In this document: positions 2,328 to 22,212 of the stretch, one piece after another | How positions within the stretch are numbered: the first letter of the stretch is position 1 | Layout of the letters: each line of letters starts with the position of its first letter | Source: a virus | IMG/VR virus record: IMGVR_UViG_3300007640_000270 | Location: 1 to 22,212 of that record | Direction: 5' to 3' (one strand) | Length of the DNA stretch: 22,212 nt | Program-made: the position numbers and the translations under genes | Notes under the pieces: generated by a model | Databases searched by the model: none | What the model was told of the DNA's origin: nothing | Seen by the model: the letters and a program-made list of their open reading frames with translations, nothing else

Positions 2328-5300
2328 TTATGTCGCCAATGCTAGAATTCTGAGGTCTTTAATCCTTGGTGGTCTTGCAGAGTTTGTTGCCCGCATTACA
2401 ATCTTAATCTGGAAGGCAATGAACTCATCAAGTGGTGTACCGATACCATCGTCTGTCACACCAGCAGTAAACTCATACTCATTAAACTGATCCAATCCAA
2501 GTGATGGAGACACACTTACGTCTGGTCCACCAGAACCGGCAACAGTTCCATCATCATTGAAGAACTTAAAGTCCAACTCATCAAAGTCATTTGCATCATC
2601 AGTTCTTAGAATTTTATAGAGAACCTTGATGTCAGCAGTGTCATCTCTGTTTGCATCAAAGATAACTCTAAGTGATGTTGCAGGATTTTCTAGTGTTGCA
2701 CGTTTTGTCAAATAGATTGCATCGTGGTCATCACCAGATGGGTCTGTCATTGGATCATAGATTGATGCTGGATACACATCAGCAGATGAATCAATCTCAT
2801 TGATTCTGTTTGCAATAGCCAAGAACGTCATTCTCTTCAAGTCGATAACAGGAGATACGTTACTGTTTGTTGAAGAAAGTGTCAGTGGCATAATCAAAGA
2901 CTTACCACCAGACATTTCGTTTGTCTCGTTAATCTCTGAGGCAACCATATATGGGTCTTCATAGTAGTAGTTATCATTCAATGGAATTGTCTCTGCATTA
3001 GCAAGAGTAGACTGTGTGAATGAAGTTTGAGAACCACTAGCACTTGTTGCGGTGGTAGGTCTAATCTTTGAAACAATATCACACTCTGGTGGAATGAGAG
3101 TTCCAATAACTGTACTACTGACATCATACATTGCGTTTTCTGTTGCAGTCACAGAACTTCCACCAAATGAAGAGTCCCCACCACTTGCAACAACTGGTGT
3201 TGTTGAAAGAGAAACTGTGTAGTAATCCGTAGATGGATTTGCAATTGCAGTATGCGTCTTATTGATTTCTGTAAATGGAACTTTGTGTAACATATACAGT
3301 TCAACAGCAGCACCATTTGCGTGAGCAGTAGCAGTTGTTCCACCGACACCTCTTGTTGCACCAGTAATATTGTTACCTGTGATTGAGGTGTAAGAAATAA
3401 TCTCATCGCCAATCTTGATGTAGTAGATACTGCCAACAGCTGTTGGTGCATACTTACCTGTGGTATCATCAAAGTTTGTACCAGAAGTTAGTGTGATTGC
3501 AGTCGCATCATCGGCAATTGCACCATTCAGTGTAGTCTCTGCACCAGATACCACACCACTAATTGTGACATTGTTTGATGTAGAATGCATCTGGTTATCA
3601 AAGTGATTTACCTTTAGAGTGGTACTACCATTTGTCATTACTAGTGGATTCTTACCAAGAGTAAGTGTTGGTACTGCGTCATTAGTGAGAGTGACTGCAC
3701 CAGCAGCAGTTGTATCAAAATTTGCTGCTCGAAGAGTGAACTTAACATCTTGTGTTGGAGATATGGCCCAAGCACGGTTATTATGACTCTTAAACACAGA
3801 ACCAACATGTGGTTGTTCTGAAACAAGGTTACCATCTGAGTCCTCTTGTCCCAAATCAGAAATCCAAATAAGATAATTTGGTGTAGTTGCCTGAACAACA
3901 AAACAGTATTCTGACATTGACTGCAAATATACAGGCGATTTAAATGTAAATGTTGTTGCTGTCTTACCGTCAGAAGAAACATTAACATCTGCTGGTTGTT
4001 TTGTTATTCTACTAAATGGTAAGACTTTAGGGCCTGGGTAACCATTTACAACATTACGAACTTCAACTGTTACTGGAAGTTCATCATCTTTAGCAGAGAA
4101 GAACAAGTCTATAGATGTAATAAATCTACCAGCATCTCCATCACCCACATTACTTAAATCAGAATTAAACTGTTTATCTTCATCTGCAATTATAAATGTT
4201 TGTGCAATTGGGTCTGGACCGCCGCCGGTGTCACCGCCGTCATCGCTGGCATCCCATCCTTGAATTGCTACTTCTCTAGATATTGCTCTTGATTCACTAA
4301 CTCCTTCATAAGCTAACCTACCATTTCTTGTTGCAATAATTGTTTCTTGGTTTACATTTAGAATACCATTTGCACTATATGTTGTTACAGCTTTCGAAAT
4401 TGCTTTTTGTTCAGTTGCAGAAGTTTCTGAAGTTAACATAAATTCAATATCACCAGTTTGGAACTGAGGATTTCCCGAAACTTTTGGGTCAGGAATTGCA
4501 AAAGTACCACTACATTGACTATTTGCTTGAACGATTATAGGACTACCCGCAACAGGTGTTGAGTCTGTAGTTGAATTTGCATCTGGTGTAACATATGAGC
4601 TTACATTCTGTCTATCAAAGAAAACATACATTCTTTGGAAAGGTTTTACACCATTTGCTTCAAATCTCACATTCCTTGCACGAACAATAGGAATTGCAGT
4701 TCTAGAAATTGTTCTGAAACCCTGACTTTCTCTTTGAATGTCTTCTTCAACAAAAGTTCTTGTTCCGGTTCTTCTTGAAGTGCCGGTTTCAATTGTGCGG
4801 CCCGGGAAGAACATCCCCCCATCATCGGAGCGTTGCCAGAGCGGGTTGAAGGTAGTACGTCCACTCCATGTATCCTGCCAAGAATTCCAAACAGTTCCTA
4901 ACTGGTTTCTGTTTGCATTCACAACTGCATCAAAGTTACCTTCGACATTGATAACAAGTTCTGGTGCAACCTCTGTCTCAAACCAAGAGTCTTGGTCTGG
5001 GTCAAGTTCTACTGTACCATGCCATGAGGCAGTTAGAAATGGTGCTACTCTTTCAAGAGTTGTTGCAAAAGGTTGTTCTGTTAGAACCTCTTCTGTATAT
5101 GGAAGTGTAAGTAGATCACCTGTCTTCTTATAACCAGCAGTAGTTCTTGCACTATCCGTGGTTGCCTGTTCAATAAGGTCAATACCCTTTGTCTTATGAA
5201 CTGGACGTAACTCACCCAATTCCATGTCCATAGAATTTCTATAATCTGGATGTCGAGTATCACCAACAGAATGACCACGGAATGGGTCAACGATGAAACC

Positions 5301-8300: not shown

Positions 8301-8858
8301 TGGACCTTGCGCACTCGTTACATCTGTAGAAGTCGCAGTAAAGGTAGTTGCTGATGCAACATCAATAGAATAAGATGTTGCATCATGTTGAATTGCAACA
8401 CTAGCAGTAATGTTTTCACCATCTGCAAATACCGCAGTTGTATTATCCGTTCCTGCTCTTATATAATTAAGAAAGAGAAGTGGTTGTTCTGTAGCACTAC
8501 CCGCCTGATATCCAATAACCTCTGCTTTAACACCAGTAGTTGCACCAGTAATAATAACTCTACTTCCAATAGTTTCATTAAAATATTTTGATGGGTCTAC
8601 GTTTTCGCCATTAAATTGTGTTGCAAGTTTTAGTGAAAAATATTTTTTATGGTTACTTGCGCCAGGTACGACCATCGCACCTTCTTTGAAAATGTGACTA
8701 CCGTGGGCCTCAATCTGATGCTGCAACTGACTCTGTAACTGAGTAAGTTCTCTTGCCTGAACTGCAAAACCAGGCCGAAAGAGTGTGCGAACGTAATTAT
8801 TGTCCTTATTAAAGTCGTCGTAATAAGGTGCAGCGTTAAGATTTGTTTTTTGTGCCAT
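2328..8858 (-). CDS. Giant DUF4815-type virion structural protein (2176 residues)
   Basis: The N-terminus (about 12-66) carries the block I know as DUF4815: YYDDFNKDNNYVRTLFRPGF, then ARELTQLQSQLQHQIEAHG and FKEGAMVVPG. Other recognisable parts are GE.ITG.TSGATG modules (roughly residues 490-560 and 870-930), a conserved helical block near 1130-1200 with FTMRDIGRIEQRLTNVER, a Gly/Asp linker followed by DPIAQTF and ITSIDLFFSAKDDELPVTVE near 1540-1600, and a MHSTSNNVTISG..IKIGDEIISY segment near 1755-1850. It ends with RPPRIKDLRILALAT. DUF4815 proteins are virion components in marine T4-like phages; a role in the outer baseplate or fibre anchoring is likely but inferred. The ATG sits 1 nt after the gp8 stop, so the two are co-expressed. 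Two local GC-rich patches in the middle suggest mosaic history. The frame is intact throughout. Confidence 0.9.
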   Translation of the reverse strand: MAQKTNLNAAPYYDDFNKDNNYVRTLFRPGFAVQARELTQLQSQLQHQIEAHGSHIFKEGAMVVPGASNHKKYFSLKLATQFNGENVDPSKYFNETIGSRVIITGATTGVKAEVIGYQAGSATEQPLLFLNYIRAGTDNTTAVFADGENITASVAIQHDATSYSIDVASATTFTATSTDVTSAQGPASRAGIAYYVKTGVYYVRGFFVAVTDQTLVLDPYNGNFSGFVGFDITETLVTPEDESSLLDNAQGSSNFAAKGAHRLQLTLTLAKKTTATNANFIQLAQLKNGVTVAMGRETEYSVLSQEFARRTFDESGNYTVRPFQFQLQESVTVNENTGRFAVGATTDDGNTASSDLLAIKVSPGKAYVNGFELEKDVPTFKDINKARDFETKNADITVFDTGNYALITNIYNSPDISEVTSEATPFKECQFYDTQNSSRGTANGTLIGVGRARSMSYHSGTAGATSSNTTSQYKLFLFDLRPFTVLTLSGTPSPTLTVNHTDGVLVTGVTSGATGLVFGEGTSTTNVNLTNVIGTFVSGEKITASDSSETDSIVEDSGNTDLTISSVTTYSFQDFKQIFMNDADAGQDFTADFVLDNQLTLSGTYRTETTGTDNLIGVSGYDTSEVKVGDILEIPTGTAGATEERVVDGITSTAISFTVVPSTDAITTANVIRKRAQLKDPEKNIALFKPSKRVVKTHLTTANGGASDTQFTIRRQFVGTTDASGVVSFTAGTNETFNGFSEGDYTLSVLDIGSGSTHATGDIVSIDGNITGTGSGTITITDSNFNASKVKLLATTTKTSVTQKNKTVQLMKQVKVTPGTTDAYGTRPTDKDISLGRADAFKLVAVFDSEDTSIDAVAPELTTGAITGTFTRGEKITGGTSGATGRIIDTASPFSYVLTSATDFTVGDVITGESSGATATVSAVTAGDVVITSDFLLDTGQRDNFYDISRIIRKPSVPTPQGRLLVVYDYMEHGTGDVMTVDSYTDVANQMDYEDIPSYNASRVDPDDPEPTGLFPLYETYDFRPRVADVAGASATLSTVDEITGNSFDFTSRVYTGTGSSYSNFGKPASNVQSDLEYYLPKRASIFMDDRGNIIVRDGASSEIPRLPTPVDNAMKLADLFLPAFTFKPQDVTLEREKTQRFTMRDIGRIEQRLTNVERVTTLSLLEKDAQSFEVTDANGLNRFKSGFIVDPFRGHSVGDTRHPDYRNSMDMELGELRPVHKTKGIDLIEQATTDSARTTAGYKKTGDLLTLPYTEEVLTEQPFATTLERVAPFLTASWHGTVELDPDQDSWFETEVAPELVINVEGNFDAVVNANRNQLGTVWNSWQDTWSGRTTFNPLWQRSDDGGMFFPGRTIETGTSRRTGTRTFVEEDIQRESQGFRTISRTAIPIVRARNVRFEANGVKPFQRMYVFFDRQNVSSYVTPDANSTTDSTPVAGSPIIVQANSQCSGTFAIPDPKVSGNPQFQTGDIEFMLTSETSATEQKAISKAVTTYSANGILNVNQETIIATRNGRLAYEGVSESRAISREVAIQGWDASDDGGDTGGGPDPIAQTFIIADEDKQFNSDLSNVGDGDAGRFITSIDLFFSAKDDELPVTVEVRNVVNGYPGPKVLPFSRITKQPADVNVSSDGKTATTFTFKSPVYLQSMSEYCFVVQATTPNYLIWISDLGQEDSDGNLVSEQPHVGSVFKSHNNRAWAISPTQDVKFTLRAANFDTTAAGAVTLTNDAVPTLTLGKNPLVMTNGSTTLKVNHFDNQMHSTSNNVTISGVVSGAETTLNGAIADDATAITLTSGTNFDDTTGKYAPTAVGSIYYIKIGDEIISYTSITGNNITGATRGVGGTTATAHANGAAVELYMLHKVPFTEINKTHTAIANPSTDYYTVSLSTTPVVASGGDSSFGGSSVTATENAMYDVSSTVIGTLIPPECDIVSKIRPTTATSASGSQTSFTQSTLANAETIPLNDNYYYEDPYMVASEINETNEMSGGKSLIMPLTLSSTNSNVSPVIDLKRMTFLAIANRINEIDSSADVYPASIYDPMTDPSGDDHDAIYLTKRATLENPATSLRVIFDANRDDTADIKVLYKILRTDDANDFDELDFKFFNDDGTVAGSGGPDVSVSPSLGLDQFNEYEFTAGVTDDGIGTPLDEFIAFQIKIVMRATNSARPPRIKDLRILALAT

Positions 8859-11027: not shown

Positions 11028-11035
11028 TATTTATA
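11028..11035 (-). promoter_or_regulatory. T4-type late promoter TATAAATA before the short fibre gene
   Basis: The minus strand shows a perfect TATAAATA 20 nt upstream of the ATG at 11007, followed by an AAAGGA ribosome site. It sits in the small gap after the stop of the gp7-like gene, where such a promoter is expected. Confidence 0.8.
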
Positions 11036-16748: not shown

Positions 16749-16756
16749 TATTTATA
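16749..16756 (-). promoter_or_regulatory. T4-type late promoter TATAAATA before gp25
   Basis: This is a perfect TATAAATA on the minus strand, 18 nt before the gp25 ATG with AAGGAT in between. Bases 16752-16754 of the element also serve as the TAA stop of the preceding 93-residue gene. Confidence 0.85.
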
Positions 16757-19024: not shown

Positions 19025-20515
19025 CTATGGGTTAAAGTCAATTCTTGCACCAACAATCGTGACGTTACCTGTAGATGTATGGTCCCAAGTTGTTCCTGTT
19101 GTTCCAGCCCATGATGTTCCAACGGTCTGAATAAGATTTGTCTCTGTATGCATCGTCATTGTCTGTGCGGACTTGAAGTTCAGTGTCGTACCAGACTTCA
19201 TGGACACAATACCAGAGATAGTTGACTGTGAAAGGTTACCACTTACGTCAAGCAGATAGTCTTTCGATGTTTTGATGTGAACACCTCGTTCACTTTCATT
19301 AGAGTCCATCTTCTTACCATCAACAGATAGTTTCCATTGACCGCCGACAACCTCAACACTAGACTTCTCTTTCGAAACAATCGTGTCACCACCGATACGT
19401 CCCTTCACATCGTCCTTGATGTTGTATGCATGGTTACCAACAATCTCTTCCTCACGGTTACCACCGATAGGCTCACCAGTTGTTGGGTCAGACTTTGCAC
19501 CAACCTTAATTCTTTCGTTGCCGTGTATCTTTCTATAGAAGTCACCTTCGACTTCCAGTATGTAATCACCCTTGATAAGTTGACGAACAGAACCCTCTAC
19601 AGTGATATTCTGTGAACCCTTAATGACAATGTTCTCACTACCGATAACAATCTCATAGTTGTCACCGATAATCTTGGTGACCATATCACCATTTGGATGT
19701 ATCTCTTCAAATGTTCCTGTACGGTGTTGCCGATACAGTCTCTCTGCGCCTGGACTGTCATCAATCTCCATGATATGTCCAGATTCAGTCTCCACAACAT
19801 GATTATATGGATAGGCACCAGAAATATAGGGATCAATGTTTGATGCAACACCCTTTGGATGTGGTTCTTCCCAAAATCCTCTTGTCTCTGCTTCTGCGGC
19901 GTCAGATACACTTGCAAGATTTGGTTTGGTTGCAGTGGGAATACCTGTTTTATCGTTAGGGTCTGTAGGTTCTGTTGCAGGAGCAGGATTACCACGCAAT
20001 CTGCGTGTTCTACGATCTATAAGAGCATTGTGAGACTCAGATAACTTACCTCTGGCCAGTCTATTGGTATCTGATTCACCTATGTCATGACCACTATTCC
20101 TCTCGCCTGGATATGGACCATACACAGGATTCATTCTGTAGTCGTCTTGTGCAGAAGAATCAGAACGAGGATCATTGAATCCCTCTGATGGATTTGCTTC
20201 TTCTTGTGGTCTGCCGGGGAGAGAACCAATAATCAGTGGTTGTTGAAATTCGTTATCACGAAAGAACCCAACAACCCATGCACCTTCAACTAACCATGAA
20301 GGTGTAGAACCCAATCCTTGCATGGATGGGTCTGTTACGGGGTGCATCACATGCGCCCAAGGTAAATCGGCCGTGGGGAGTGCAACAACATCCTCAGTAT
20401 GATAACCAAGGCATCGCACCCTCACACGGCCGACTTGTTGTGGATCATTTCGGTCTTCGACAACGCCGACAAACCAGTTAAATCCGTCGAGTCCCATGAA
20501 ATAGTTAGTCTGCAT
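19025..20515 (-). CDS. 5: Baseplate central spike / hub protein gp5, no lysozyme domain
   Basis: This 496-residue protein starts with an OB-fold like that of T4 gp5 and VgrG: GFNWFVGVVEDRNDPQQVGR (11-30), VRVRCLGYH, LPWAHVMHPV (51-60), GSTPSWLVEGAWVVGFF (69-85) and QQPLIIGSLPG (91-101). A hydrophilic linker follows (102-215). After HVVETESGHIMEIDDSPGAE (239-258) comes a run of short beta-strand repeats with regular Gly (about 275-400, for example IVIGSENIVIKGSQNITVEG), as expected for the triple beta-helix needle, then a Ser/Thr-rich end. No T4-type lysozyme domain is present. The protein would form the membrane-piercing spike at the baseplate centre, tipped by the PAAR protein. A perfect TATAAATA lies only 5 nt before the ATG. 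An ATG at codon 7 is an alternative start. Confidence 0.92.
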   Translation of the reverse strand: MQTNYFMGLDGFNWFVGVVEDRNDPQQVGRVRVRCLGYHTEDVVALPTADLPWAHVMHPVTDPSMQGLGSTPSWLVEGAWVVGFFRDNEFQQPLIIGSLPGRPQEEANPSEGFNDPRSDSSAQDDYRMNPVYGPYPGERNSGHDIGESDTNRLARGKLSESHNALIDRRTRRLRGNPAPATEPTDPNDKTGIPTATKPNLASVSDAAEAETRGFWEEPHPKGVASNIDPYISGAYPYNHVVETESGHIMEIDDSPGAERLYRQHRTGTFEEIHPNGDMVTKIIGDNYEIVIGSENIVIKGSQNITVEGSVRQLIKGDYILEVEGDFYRKIHGNERIKVGAKSDPTTGEPIGGNREEEIVGNHAYNIKDDVKGRIGGDTIVSKEKSSVEVVGGQWKLSVDGKKMDSNESERGVHIKTSKDYLLDVSGNLSQSTISGIVSMKSGTTLNFKSAQTMTMHTETNLIQTVGTSWAGTTGTTWDHTSTGNVTIVGARIDFNP

Positions 20516-20520
20516 GGGAC

Positions 20521-20528
20521 TATTTATA
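20521..20528 (-). promoter_or_regulatory. T4-type late promoter TATAAATA before gp5
   Basis: This is a perfect TATAAATA on the minus strand, followed by GTCCC and then the gp5 ATG. In T4 late promoters this element occupies about -13 to -6, so transcription would begin at or next to the A of the ATG. No Shine-Dalgarno site is visible for gp5. Confidence 0.75.
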
Positions 20529-20703: not shown

Positions 20704-21246
20704 CTATCTACTCCCAATTACCAGATGCGTTCTGTCTTCTCCACAGTTAAATACCGTATGCAGAGATGTTGTTTTTGTCTCATACACCACACCATCCGCT
20801 GGTATGTGATACGTTTTACTGTCTCTCAAACCACCTTCGGGTGCATTTGGAAAGAACATATACGCATGTGGATTCGTAATCAGAGCCATATGGTAACGAT
20901 TAGTTTTATCTTTATGTAACGAGTAAGTGGTATGCTTTCTTTTCATCATGAAGCGAGCACGCACACCATTCAAATCACTTATGATCTCTTCAAAGATAGT
21001 TCCCCTGTACAAAGGAACTATAGTATCATAGTTTGACTCTTCCTTACTAGTGTTTCTAAAAGACCCGCACCCACCGATCCACATATCTTCGGTAGAGTTA
21101 GGGTCATATTGCAGGCAACTCTGCTGACTTCCATCATCAGAGGTATGCCATACAATATCACTTTGAATTCTATCCCATTCCATAAGAACACGATCAATGT
21201 CGTACTTATGGATTGTGGGTGTCACATATGGGTCAAATTCATTCAT
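20704..21246 (-). CDS. 2-oxoglutarate/Fe(II) oxygenase, aspartyl/asparaginyl hydroxylase-like
   Basis: From the ATG at 21246 the protein has 180 residues. Its second half follows the Asp/Asn beta-hydroxylase pattern: YSLHKDKTNRYHMALITNP (108-126) gives the HxD iron site (H111, D113) with R117 and H119, then a beta segment, then SLHTVFNCGEDRTHLVI (161-177) gives the distal iron ligand H163 and the 2-oxoglutarate-binding R172. The enzyme would couple oxidation of 2-oxoglutarate to hydroxylation of a protein or small molecule; the substrate is unknown. The N-terminal 80 residues are not assignable. I preferred this start to one 19 codons upstream because the longer form overlaps the 84-residue gene by 47 nt and its extra residues look like out-of-frame translation. 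Related oxygenases are frequent in marine T4-like phages. Confidence 0.78.
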   Translation of the reverse strand: MNEFDPYVTPTIHKYDIDRVLMEWDRIQSDIVWHTSDDGSQQSCLQYDPNSTEDMWIGGCGSFRNTSKEESNYDTIVPLYRGTIFEEIISDLNGVRARFMMKRKHTTYSLHKDKTNRYHMALITNPHAYMFFPNAPEGGLRDSKTYHIPADGVVYETKTTSLHTVFNCGEDRTHLVIGSR

Positions 21247-21253
21247 GCAGGGG

Positions 21254-21261
21254 TATTTAGT
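21254..21261 (-). promoter_or_regulatory. Weak late-type element ACTAAATA before the oxygenase gene
   Basis: The minus strand reads ACTAAATA, two bases from TATAAATA, 7 nt before the ATG of the oxygenase gene. It contains the TAA stop of the 84-residue gene (21257-21259). The layout copies that of the confident late promoters, but the match is poor and it may be chance. Confidence 0.25.
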
Positions 21262-21511
21262 ATCCGATAATCTCTGATGGAAGAATAAAGTCCAGTGAAC
21301 CACCAGAACCCTCTACTTCGATATAAACCGAGTCAAGAGACTTACCCTTAATGGGTACATACTTCTTCAGCTTCTTGGAATAGGTAAGAAACACCCCATT
21401 TTCCAACTTCACATCATCATACGAGTCCTTATCCGAACCAATCGCACAGATTTTCGCGATTTTCGACTCGCCGTATTCACCCACATAGGTCACTACTTCA
21501 CCGATATTCAT
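21257..21511 (-). CDS. Small protein of unknown function, probably beta-rich (84 residues)
   Basis: The sequence MNIGEVVTYVGEYGESKIAK, ICAIGSDKDSYDDVKLENGV, FLTYSKKLKKYVPIKGKSLD and the tail DFILPSEIIGY alternates short beta strands with turns, which would suit a small SH3-like barrel. That is judged from pattern only. It has no catalytic motif and no membrane helix. The ATG overlaps the stop of the 63-residue gene (ATGA), and the gene ends 10 nt before the oxygenase ATG, so it belongs to the same run of small genes. No family is recognised. Confidence 0.8.
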   Translation of the reverse strand: MNIGEVVTYVGEYGESKIAKICAIGSDKDSYDDVKLENGVFLTYSKKLKKYVPIKGKSLDSVYIEVEGSGGSLDFILPSEIIGY

Positions 21512-21699
21512 GTCTTTGATCCTTTCTCTAGAATATCACCAATCGCACAGGATATACTTGAGGCTCCTGCAAACCTATTCTGTATTGTCGGGATAACACC
21601 GACACATTCTTCCATTGTTTTCACACCGTACATACGAGATGCACTCAAAGTTACCTCTACACCACTCAGATAGGTAATAATCATTAATATCTCAATCAT
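21508..21699 (-). CDS. Small two-cysteine protein with hydrophobic N-terminus (63 residues)
   Basis: I place the start at the ATG at 21699, because it forms an ATGA overlap with the preceding gene. A longer in-frame extension upstream would only read through that gene in the wrong frame. The protein begins MIEILMIITYLSGVEVTLSA, a hydrophobic stretch that could be a signal peptide or membrane anchor, and continues with TMEECVGVIPTIQNRFAGAS and SISCAIGDILEKGSKT. The two Cys (32 and 51) in an 'EEC...C' spacing recall small exported phage proteins in which they may form a disulfide. Function is unknown. Its stop overlaps the ATG of the 84-residue gene. Confidence 0.72.
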   Translation of the reverse strand: MIEILMIITYLSGVEVTLSASRMYGVKTMEECVGVIPTIQNRFAGASSISCAIGDILEKGSKT

Positions 21700-21854
21700 A
21701 CTGATATAATCCAATAGAATAATGCACCATACACAATCATACCCAAAGTAATGCATCCCAGAATTGCAGAGATCACTTTGAATGTTATCACAGGATGGCG
21801 TATCAGGTAATACACCGCAAACCCTGTAAGAAGTAATATCAATAATCCTACCAT
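21696..21854 (-). CDS. Very small membrane protein (52 residues, two helices)
   Basis: The frame from ATG 21854 reads MVGLLILLLTGFAVYYLIRH, PVITFKVISAILGCITLGMI, VYGALFYWIISV. Two hydrophobic segments (about 3-18 and 25-50) are separated by a short RHP loop, so a hairpin in the inner membrane is likely. The ATG lies inside the last codons of the preceding gene (7-nt overlap), and its TGA overlaps the next ATG (ATGA), which strongly supports it as a real coupled gene. There is GGAAGAG about 11 nt upstream. The longer reading frame over the same bases has an odd, Cys-rich composition and is not credible here. Function is unknown. Confidence 0.75.
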   Translation of the reverse strand: MVGLLILLLTGFAVYYLIRHPVITFKVISAILGCITLGMIVYGALFYWIISV

Positions 21855-22006
21855 AATTCCAATGCTCTTCCATTACCCACGATGATGAATAGACAGGTAA
21901 CAATATGTAGAAGAACCCACACAGTTCGTATCAGAGCAACCCTGTCTGCCTTACGGTTATCAGAGTATGCCTTTGCACCTATTGCTTTACACCAGTAGTT
22001 CCACAT
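21848..22006 (-). CDS. Very small conserved protein with one membrane helix (52 residues)
   Basis: From ATG 22006 the frame reads MWNYWCKAIGAKAYSDNRKA, DRVALIRTVWVLLHIVTCLF, IIVGNGRALELW. The N-terminal 27 residues are polar and basic, and residues 28-44 form one membrane helix, so a cytoplasmic N-terminus with a single span is likely. I recall very similar 'MWNYWCKAIG..AY' micro-proteins in marine T4-like phages, always without known function. It is the first gene after a sigma-70-like promoter, and its stop overlaps the start of the next micro-gene. Confidence 0.78.
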   Translation of the reverse strand: MWNYWCKAIGAKAYSDNRKADRVALIRTVWVLLHIVTCLFIIVGNGRALELW

Positions 22007-22015
22007 TATATAATC

Positions 22016-22044
22016 ACTCTACCATACTCTTTCGAGATTGTCAA
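22016..22044 (-). promoter_or_regulatory. Sigma-70-like promoter (TTGACA - 17 nt - TAGAGT)
   Basis: On the minus strand a perfect -35 hexamer TTGACA (22039-22044) is followed after exactly 17 nt by TAGAGT (22016-22021), four of six matches to TATAAT. The ATG of the first micro-gene lies about 10 nt further on. It sits in the only real intergenic gap of the right part. The host polymerase or a phage early/middle programme could read it; it clearly differs from the TATAAATA elements to the left. Confidence 0.6.
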
Positions 22045-22052
22045 TACAAAAT

Positions 22053-22211
22053 TTAACTAAAGGCGATTAAACTTAACAATAGACTGTTCAAAGAAAATCC
22101 AATTGCATTCGAAACAATGTACAGAATATCCTTTGCACAGATCGCCCGAACCAAAAACAGAAACAAACCCAGCCAAACCAACAGAATAAAGTTCAGTGGG
22201 GGTAAGTTTGC
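22053..22211 (-). CDS. 3' end of a further gene, reading frame uncertain
   Basis: Two minus-strand frames stay open from the right edge. The one ending TAA at 22053 reads like a small membrane protein (ANLPPLNFILLVWLGLFLFL, VRAICAKDILYIVSNAIGFS, LNSLLLSLIAFS), similar in style to the two micro-genes after it. The other, ending TAG at 22057, gives a soluble Cys/Trp-containing end (GSGDLCKGYSVHCFECNWIF, FEQSIVKFNRL). T-rich DNA easily gives hydrophobic residues in a wrong frame, so I prefer the first only slightly. The start is outside the window. Confidence 0.35.
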   Translation of the reverse strand, partial: ANLPPLNFILLVWLGLFLFLVRAICAKDILYIVSNAIGFSLNSLLLSLIAFS

Positions 22212-22212
22212 A

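Follow-up and report, generated by a model that had tools for sequence, protein, structure and literature searches.

Overlapping small genes behind a longer reading frame at the upstream end of a T4-like marine phage fragment

Several open reading frames overlap near one end of this phage DNA, and the question is which of them are genes and what their products might do. The window analysed here is the whole 22,212-base virus record, a marine phage fragment whose minus strand carries T4-like structural genes, including gp5 (19025-20515; Gp5_OB, 77 bits in a Pfam search). Read along the minus strand from the upstream end, the order is P (partial), A, B, C, D, a gene of about 180-199 aa, a gene of 56 aa and gp5. 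A DNA search with positions 21200-22212 found matches in four Melnitz-like records, all of them confined to the P gene; by DNA, the closest named relatives at this end are thus Melnitz-like Methylophilales phages, by way of a single gene.

A sequence-only reading of this DNA had proposed three genes of 52, 52 and 63 codons overlapping by 7 and 4 nt, and we found the coordinates, lengths and overlaps all as claimed. Its two-cysteine protein is C, with cysteines at residues 32 and 51 when counted on the translation, and the longest frame, which it placed at 21903 and described as joining C to an out-of-frame reading of B, is a 131-codon frame with a TTG start and C's stop, here called X. The word nested applies to B, which lies inside X; the real genes overlap end to end only. 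A fourth link went unmentioned, namely that the stop of C overlaps the start of D by ATGA, so that stops and starts overlap by 7, 4 and 4 nt, as in pairs of genes that use termination-reinitiation. The features of the region are as follows.

22053-22212, minus strand: P, 3' part of a small membrane protein of about 85-90 aa that begins outside the window; adjoins the cassette on its upstream side
22016-22044, minus strand: sigma-70-like candidate promoter TTGACA-17-TAGAGT directly before A, judged by its position after P in relatives
21848-22006, minus strand: A, 52 aa, one predicted transmembrane helix, phrog_1679 family (profile match, relatives, pN/pS)
21848-21854, minus strand: A/B overlap of 7 nt, ATGGTAG, with B's ATG inside A's Trp-stop; conserved in relatives
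21696-21854, minus strand: B, 52 aa, predicted two-helix hairpin membrane protein with motif YYLIRHP (13 loci, pN/pS, model)
21508-21699, minus strand: C, 63 aa, predicted beta-beta-alpha-beta, C32 and C51, lineage-specific (junctions, codon score, model); overlaps B by 4 nt, ATGA, and D by 4 nt, ATGA
21257-21511, minus strand: D, 84 aa, next gene after B or C (17 loci)
21508-21903, minus strand: X, 131-codon frame from a TTG start at 21903 to C's stop; false upstream of 21699, identical with C below 21699
20521-20528, minus strand: TATAAATA, a late promoter motif of the T4 type immediately before gp5, at the end of the cassette (motif search)

Frame X against genes A and B

The length of these frames is a weak argument for any of them, because mononucleotide shuffles of the region often hold such frames: among 2000, an ATG frame of at least 52 codons occurred in 244 and one of at least 63 codons in 100. 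Relatives were far more informative. The nearest (L010, contig 3300025759_003569; L numbers denote loci) differs from the window at 1 base in 1606. In four diverged relatives (L011, L013, L014 and L015) A and B are both exactly 52 codons long and share the same 7-nt overlap, and the overlap itself, ATGGTAG, is conserved in these four, as the check named by the sequence-only reading had called for, and in L010. Frame X is stopped inside B in 4/4 of the diverged relatives, two of which carry an additional stop. Relatives that kept the long frame and lost the 52-codon frames would have spoken against A and B; the opposite was found in all four.

Substitution patterns agreed with this picture. Pairwise pN/pS values, which come from five related sequences and small counts, were 0.09 in the A frame before the overlap with X and 0.15 inside it, and in the B frame 0.11 in the shared 5' part and 0.21 for full-length B, counted among the four relatives. 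For the X frame the values were 1.06, 2.08 and 2.23 where X itself runs, and 3.32 upstream of the TTG. In the third frame they were 1.59 and 3.14 over A and 0.38 and 0.33 over B, so that the margin of B is modest over the third frame and clear over X; over B the third frame is A's frame continued past A's stop, and it holds no long open frame there. When each variable column was counted once, changes fell on codon positions one, two and three in the proportions 5/3/12 in A (n=20) and 9/3/11 in B (n=23, four relatives), and read in the X frame the same columns were synonymous in only 3/20 and 4/23 cases. Between the window and L009 (3300025853_001552), eight base changes at the start of B alter two residues of B and seven of X, in a stretch that sits at the end of a contig, where an assembly error is possible.

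A and B are therefore settled as genes by the comparison with relatives, which, at the level of sequence conservation, shows both to be real protein genes and X to be false upstream of C's ATG, as the sequence-only reading had held. The idea that A and B are an RNA element instead of protein genes was rejected, the changes being mostly synonymous. There is next to no chance that X is the real gene of 131 codons and B the accident: no frame in the region is longer than X, which stays open for 68 codons before C begins, and B's own codon score is poor, but X is interrupted in every one of the four relatives, its pN/pS runs from 1.06 to 2.23, its first 68 codons score like an out-of-frame piece (-0.56 per codon, out-of-frame pieces averaging -0.62 and -0.87) and the B family occurs in 13 loci. 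A rule that takes the longest frame would thus choose the wrong gene here, as the comparison has shown.

The B/C mosaic and the status of C

The B family comprises 13 loci, each on its own contig, with conserved motifs including YYLIRHP, and the modelled B protein (pLDDT 87) has helices at residues 2-19 and 21-51. Seven of the 13 contigs pass from B to D without C, two carry C and four (L195-L198) have other neighbours. In L011, L013, L014 and L015, D begins about 4-10 nt after B and C is absent; the more distant L089-L091 also go from B to D. The window's B is close to the four relatives over roughly its first 21 codons and differs sharply from there on. Since B diverges past that point and C is missing from those relatives, C seems to have arrived together with the 3' half of B, and the alignments show a mosaic at B/C in which both look to have been swapped in.

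Searches with B gave little. No match was found in phage records at E up to 0.1, window B had no PHROG or Pfam match, holin and superinfection-exclusion families included, and a fold search with the hairpin against a viral library found none. Relatives of B had weak PHROG or Pfam matches only (E 0.07 or worse), one of them to phrog_1130, 'membrane protein', at E 0.94. B also occurs without A (L090, L091, L195-L198). In L090 and L091 the gene before B encodes 123 aa with LLFVCTNNKHRSVTAANM near its start, and we take it to resemble a low-molecular-weight phosphatase.

C was found only in L010 and L009, where it is identical base for base, so that selection on it lies beyond measurement by divergence. 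Codon usage offered another view. C has a log-odds score of -0.12 per codon when read in its own frame, and the other two frames give -0.78 and -0.72; D scores -0.04, A -0.26, P -0.28 and B -0.42, B being hardly above its other frames (-0.55 and -0.52), and in P another frame scores slightly better. The training structural genes average 0.44 (sd 0.19), and since all cassette genes fall below them the score discriminates weakly. Single-sequence AlphaFold modelling gave a best model of C with pLDDT 83 and pTM 0.66, made of two strands, a helix and a strand; the five models reached 83.1, 83.0, 81.3, 56.9 and 39.4, the last two being poor.

Neither phage records nor PDB sequences returned anything for C at E up to 1, and a fold search against viral and PDB models gave no match at E <= 0.001, the model resembling many small, mostly uncharacterised phage proteins above that limit. 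A second structural comparison reached Z values of up to 5.0 (PaaB), within the range that the tool calls a common arrangement. In that same range (Z 3.2-4.4) lie three phage inhibitors of similar length that overlay the model in part: T7 Gp2 (Z 4.4 over 51 residues), T4/RB69 Dmd (Z 3.8 and 3.6; Foldseek E 2.0) and phi29-type p56 (Z 3.5 and 3.2; Foldseek E 1.2-3.3). Gp2 was not among the 50 Foldseek matches listed for C. We treat this modelled likeness to Gp2, Dmd and p56 as a lead only.

That C is a gene is supported but not proven by its junctions, its codon score and its single-sequence fold. It is unlikely, although the case has some weight, that A and B are real and C is a chance open frame in a spacer swapped in between B and D. 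Outside the window, C has been seen in just two contigs, which are near-identical, a frame of its length arises in the shuffles at the rate given above, seven relatives do without it, its codon score falls well short of the training average and two of the five models are poor. Set against this, C fits between B and D with ATGA at each end, its own frame outscores the other two, and its best model was obtained at that confidence without an alignment.

Gene A, its annotation and its 3' end

A matches phrog_1679 (E=1.1e-10, 42 bits), residues 1-45 aligning with positions 6-50 of the 71 in the profile. The protein begins with a Trp-rich, charged N-terminus, followed by one strongly hydrophobic stretch that is predicted to form a single membrane helix. 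Relatives were collected from 72 viral loci, many of them partial. The core, WxxLHIVTCLFIIxGNGRxLGxW-stop, has 15/27 columns identical in 12 chosen sequences, the N-terminus varying, and is encoded in 315 viral stretches, of which the best 80 were retained. Among 50,697 phage records, 127 had a match at E <= 0.01, all of them cyanophages or Synechococcus or Prochlorococcus phages by name. As the core is near-invariant and present in so many viral stretches, A at least is under strong constraint. A cellular origin of A was also weighed: the core is present in five MAG contigs from one-genome-per-species assemblies, one of which, equal in length (60,409) to an IMG/VR contig recovered in the searches with A, is probably phage.

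The resemblance extends to the layout of five aligned cyanophage members of phrog_1679, which share with A a W..W.KA.G N-terminus, a charged stretch, IRT and one membrane helix. The family corresponds to T4-LIKE GC 416, in that the P-RSM4 protein labelled GC 416 matches phrog_1679 at 1.2e-33. A differs from these proteins in length, having 52 aa and ending in LW-stop, whereas eight cyanophage frames of phrog_1679 / GC 416 run to 64-97 codons. Some homologues of A carry the names 'Rnf-Nqr' or 'nitrogen fixation protein-like' (GU071099, HQ698895, MH512890 and others). For A itself no Pfam family, and hence no Rnf/Nqr profile, was found at E up to 1; Pfam likewise gave nothing for the sole member so named that was searched (the P-RSM4 protein, GU071099), a literature search joining 'Rnf-Nqr' to cyanophage returned no paper, and the A profile had no match among PDB sequences at E up to 1.

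Eight phage records were opened to see how A is annotated. A coding sequence covers A in three (P-RSM4, DSL-LC02 and S-CBS4), and the match lies under no annotated coding sequence in the other five (S-PM2, S-RIM32, S-SSM7, S-WAM1 and S-CAM9), three of which were picked because the listing had no feature at that place. In these five the A frame enters the next annotated coding sequence by 62, 62, 128, 65 and 151 nt; in the three annotated records it does not reach it. Because the frame runs into its neighbour in all five unannotated cases and in 0/3 annotated ones, overlap with the neighbour seems to cost A its annotation. The sequence-only reading had expected automatic annotation to miss one gene here and mis-start another; this is plausible, and the five records bear it out for homologues of A in deposited phages. 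Several deposited genomes thus lack an entry for a small membrane protein that is near-invariant and belongs to widespread marine phages. In four of the eight records A adjoins replication genes (P-RSM4, S-PM2, S-RIM32) or regA (S-CAM9), and in the other four it lies elsewhere, near gp5 in S-WAM1.

The shortest form of A is a 31-residue frame with a TTG start, the bare membrane core (L062-L082, around 2990-3085), which in most of the loci listed, though not in L078, overlaps a DUF6552-like gene at its end; it is very likely missed by standard annotation. In L047, just after 3144, the 64 aa gene that follows A looks by eye as though it were copied from the membrane part of A and had since diverged, possibly after a tandem duplication.

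The 3' end of A has a second property. Of 159 loci entered, 128 matched the core pattern and 72 were distinct, 27 of which had no next open frame by the rule used; these 72 loci are from related phages and are not independent events. Twenty of the 72 end in NTA TGG TRR, five of them being the A-B loci themselves, and in 19/20 the resulting ATG opens a frame of 45 codons or more. Other out-of-frame ATGs, taken as a control from the last 150 bases ahead of A's stop, begin a frame of that length in only 5/206 cases. The 19 next genes fall into 12 mutually unrelated clusters (blastp, 1e-3). In the remaining 26 A loci with a next open frame, the start lies at +1 or -1 in 16, at -4 in three and elsewhere in seven. 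For L012 the longest-frame rule chose the in-frame ATG of X, and its row was set to -7 by hand in the offset tally, an adjustment on which the count of 19/20 does not depend. In L048 and L265 a second ATG nearby could be the real start of the next gene. Overlaps of 7 nt are a rare class in prokaryote genomes (PMC10666635).

On a plain reading, the end of A is conserved because it anchors the protein in the membrane, and compact phages make use of the ATG it contains. Tentatively, and at odds that we put low, A could instead be a portable coupling head, in which Leu-Trp-stop is reread as the start of the next gene and the downstream gene can be exchanged at a fixed junction while remaining tied to A's translation and to the membrane. 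If true, this would be a simple device for swapping phage accessory genes while keeping translational control.

Promoters, timing and a proposed role

The sigma-70-like site before A leaves nine bases between its -10 hexamer and A's ATG, with hardly any leader or ribosome-binding site. The region holds two promoter-like sites against 5.7 expected, and TTGACA-17-TAGAGT alone is not above chance. Its position in relatives is more telling: in the 90 nt that follow P, 35 of 50 distinct P tails, which include the window's own and come from related phages, have a match of 10/12 or better, compared with 11 of 250 shuffles. The offset is common to 9/12 of the P-tail rows listed, and the spacing is 17 in 12/12. 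By these sequence comparisons, the promoter before A is supported but not proven. It cannot be general, because A directly follows another gene in L011, L013 and L014.

At the other end of the cassette, TATAAATA occurs three times in the window (11028-11035, 16749-16756 and 20521-20528), each time on the minus strand and at most 25 bases upstream of a gene start; 0.92 occurrences were expected, and 5/100 shuffles reach three. In the Melnitz description, sigma-70 promoters are taken as early and TATAAAT as late (PMC9004378). With the sigma-70-like site before A and TATAAATA before gp5, the motifs suggest that the cassette is early and gp5 late.

Our main reading, with a probability of roughly 0.55, is that A-B-C-D form a translationally coupled early cassette of host-takeover micro-proteins. 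The gene structure of A and B is well supported; the coupling, the timing, the membrane localisation and the role of the products are what we infer. The four genes would be read from one transcript, most likely from the host-type (early) promoter just upstream of A, with gp5 downstream using its own late promoter motif. Ribosomes ending A would restart at the ATG within its last Trp-stop, and then at the ATGA of B/C and of C/D; such coupled restarts would make the products together and in linked amounts. A, with one membrane helix, and B, as a helical hairpin, would enter the inner membrane. In this lineage, recombination would have brought in C, a small, soluble folded protein, together with the 3' half of B.

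In the gene pairs tested in PMC10666635, translation is coupled across short overlaps by termination-reinitiation. The 4-nt ATGA junctions of B/C and C/D are like those pairs, -1 being the commonest class there, whereas the 7-nt A/B overlap is unlike the commoner ones, its phase being several-fold rarer than -8/-11/-14 in the same work.

As to role, early host takeover at the membrane or control of superinfection would be most likely. We favour these over lysis on the strength of the early-type promoter, the replication-gene setting of A in some cyanophages and the absence of a lysis match. PHROG, Pfam, PDB and fold searches gave no profile or fold match that supports a function for A, B or C, and none for the action on the host envelope or on superinfection that the sequence-only reading had put forward. 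Small phage membrane proteins of the T4 Imm type act in superinfection exclusion or host takeover; A and B are like them, and like pinholins, in size, hydrophobicity and having one or two helices only, and comparison with either kind gave no convincing sequence or fold match. Many different genes follow A, and C is absent from 11/13 contigs with B; since the three genes do not travel as a set, their products are unlikely to form a fixed A-B-C complex. The cassette belongs to known kinds, phage micro-proteins and overlapping genes, and the recurring A junction is moderately interesting.

It is improbable, if worth weighing, that the cassette is genomic filler, that is, fast-exchanged accessory genes with no common function, packed by genome-length selection alone. 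The neighbours of A and B do change freely, and C and the 3' half of B have been replaced, as such a view would have it; the near-invariant core of A in its 315 viral stretches and the conserved motifs of B speak against it.

A lysis role, in which B, with or without A, would be a small holin or antiholin-like hairpin made late, we regard as quite improbable. Pinholin-like proteins have a size and a two-helix hairpin compatible with those predicted for B, and no holin was recognised among the neighbours searched. Yet B has no holin profile match in PHROG or Pfam, the early-type promoter is nearer than the late one, the Pfam search of eight window proteins found no lysis gene, and in cyanophages A has replication genes or regA beside it in half of the opened records, while in the rest it lies elsewhere.

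The upstream neighbour P has a frame that is open to the window end, and its Melnitz counterpart is locus tag 67. Relatives of P occur in at least 94 viral stretches, the best 80 being 81-94% identical. A full-length relative of 90 aa has a match to MtN3_slv over nearly its full length that falls below the cutoff (15.3 bits, cutoff 23.7), and P is perhaps a SemiSWEET-like phage protein, given this weak match to a sugar-transporter family. The notion that A always stands behind a SemiSWEET-like gene was dropped, since the gene that precedes A in L011, L013 and L014 is a different, soluble-looking one.

Two further observations concern the window itself. Positions 21983-22022, around the start of A, match 8523-8563 in a 2176-codon gene of the same record (40 bases, 86%, E 2.5e-5 within the record), probably by chance. 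After D lies a 199-codon frame with a GTG start (20704-21303); because that start would overlap D by 47 nt, the true one is probably an ATG near 21246, which would make this another likely mis-start for automatic calling.
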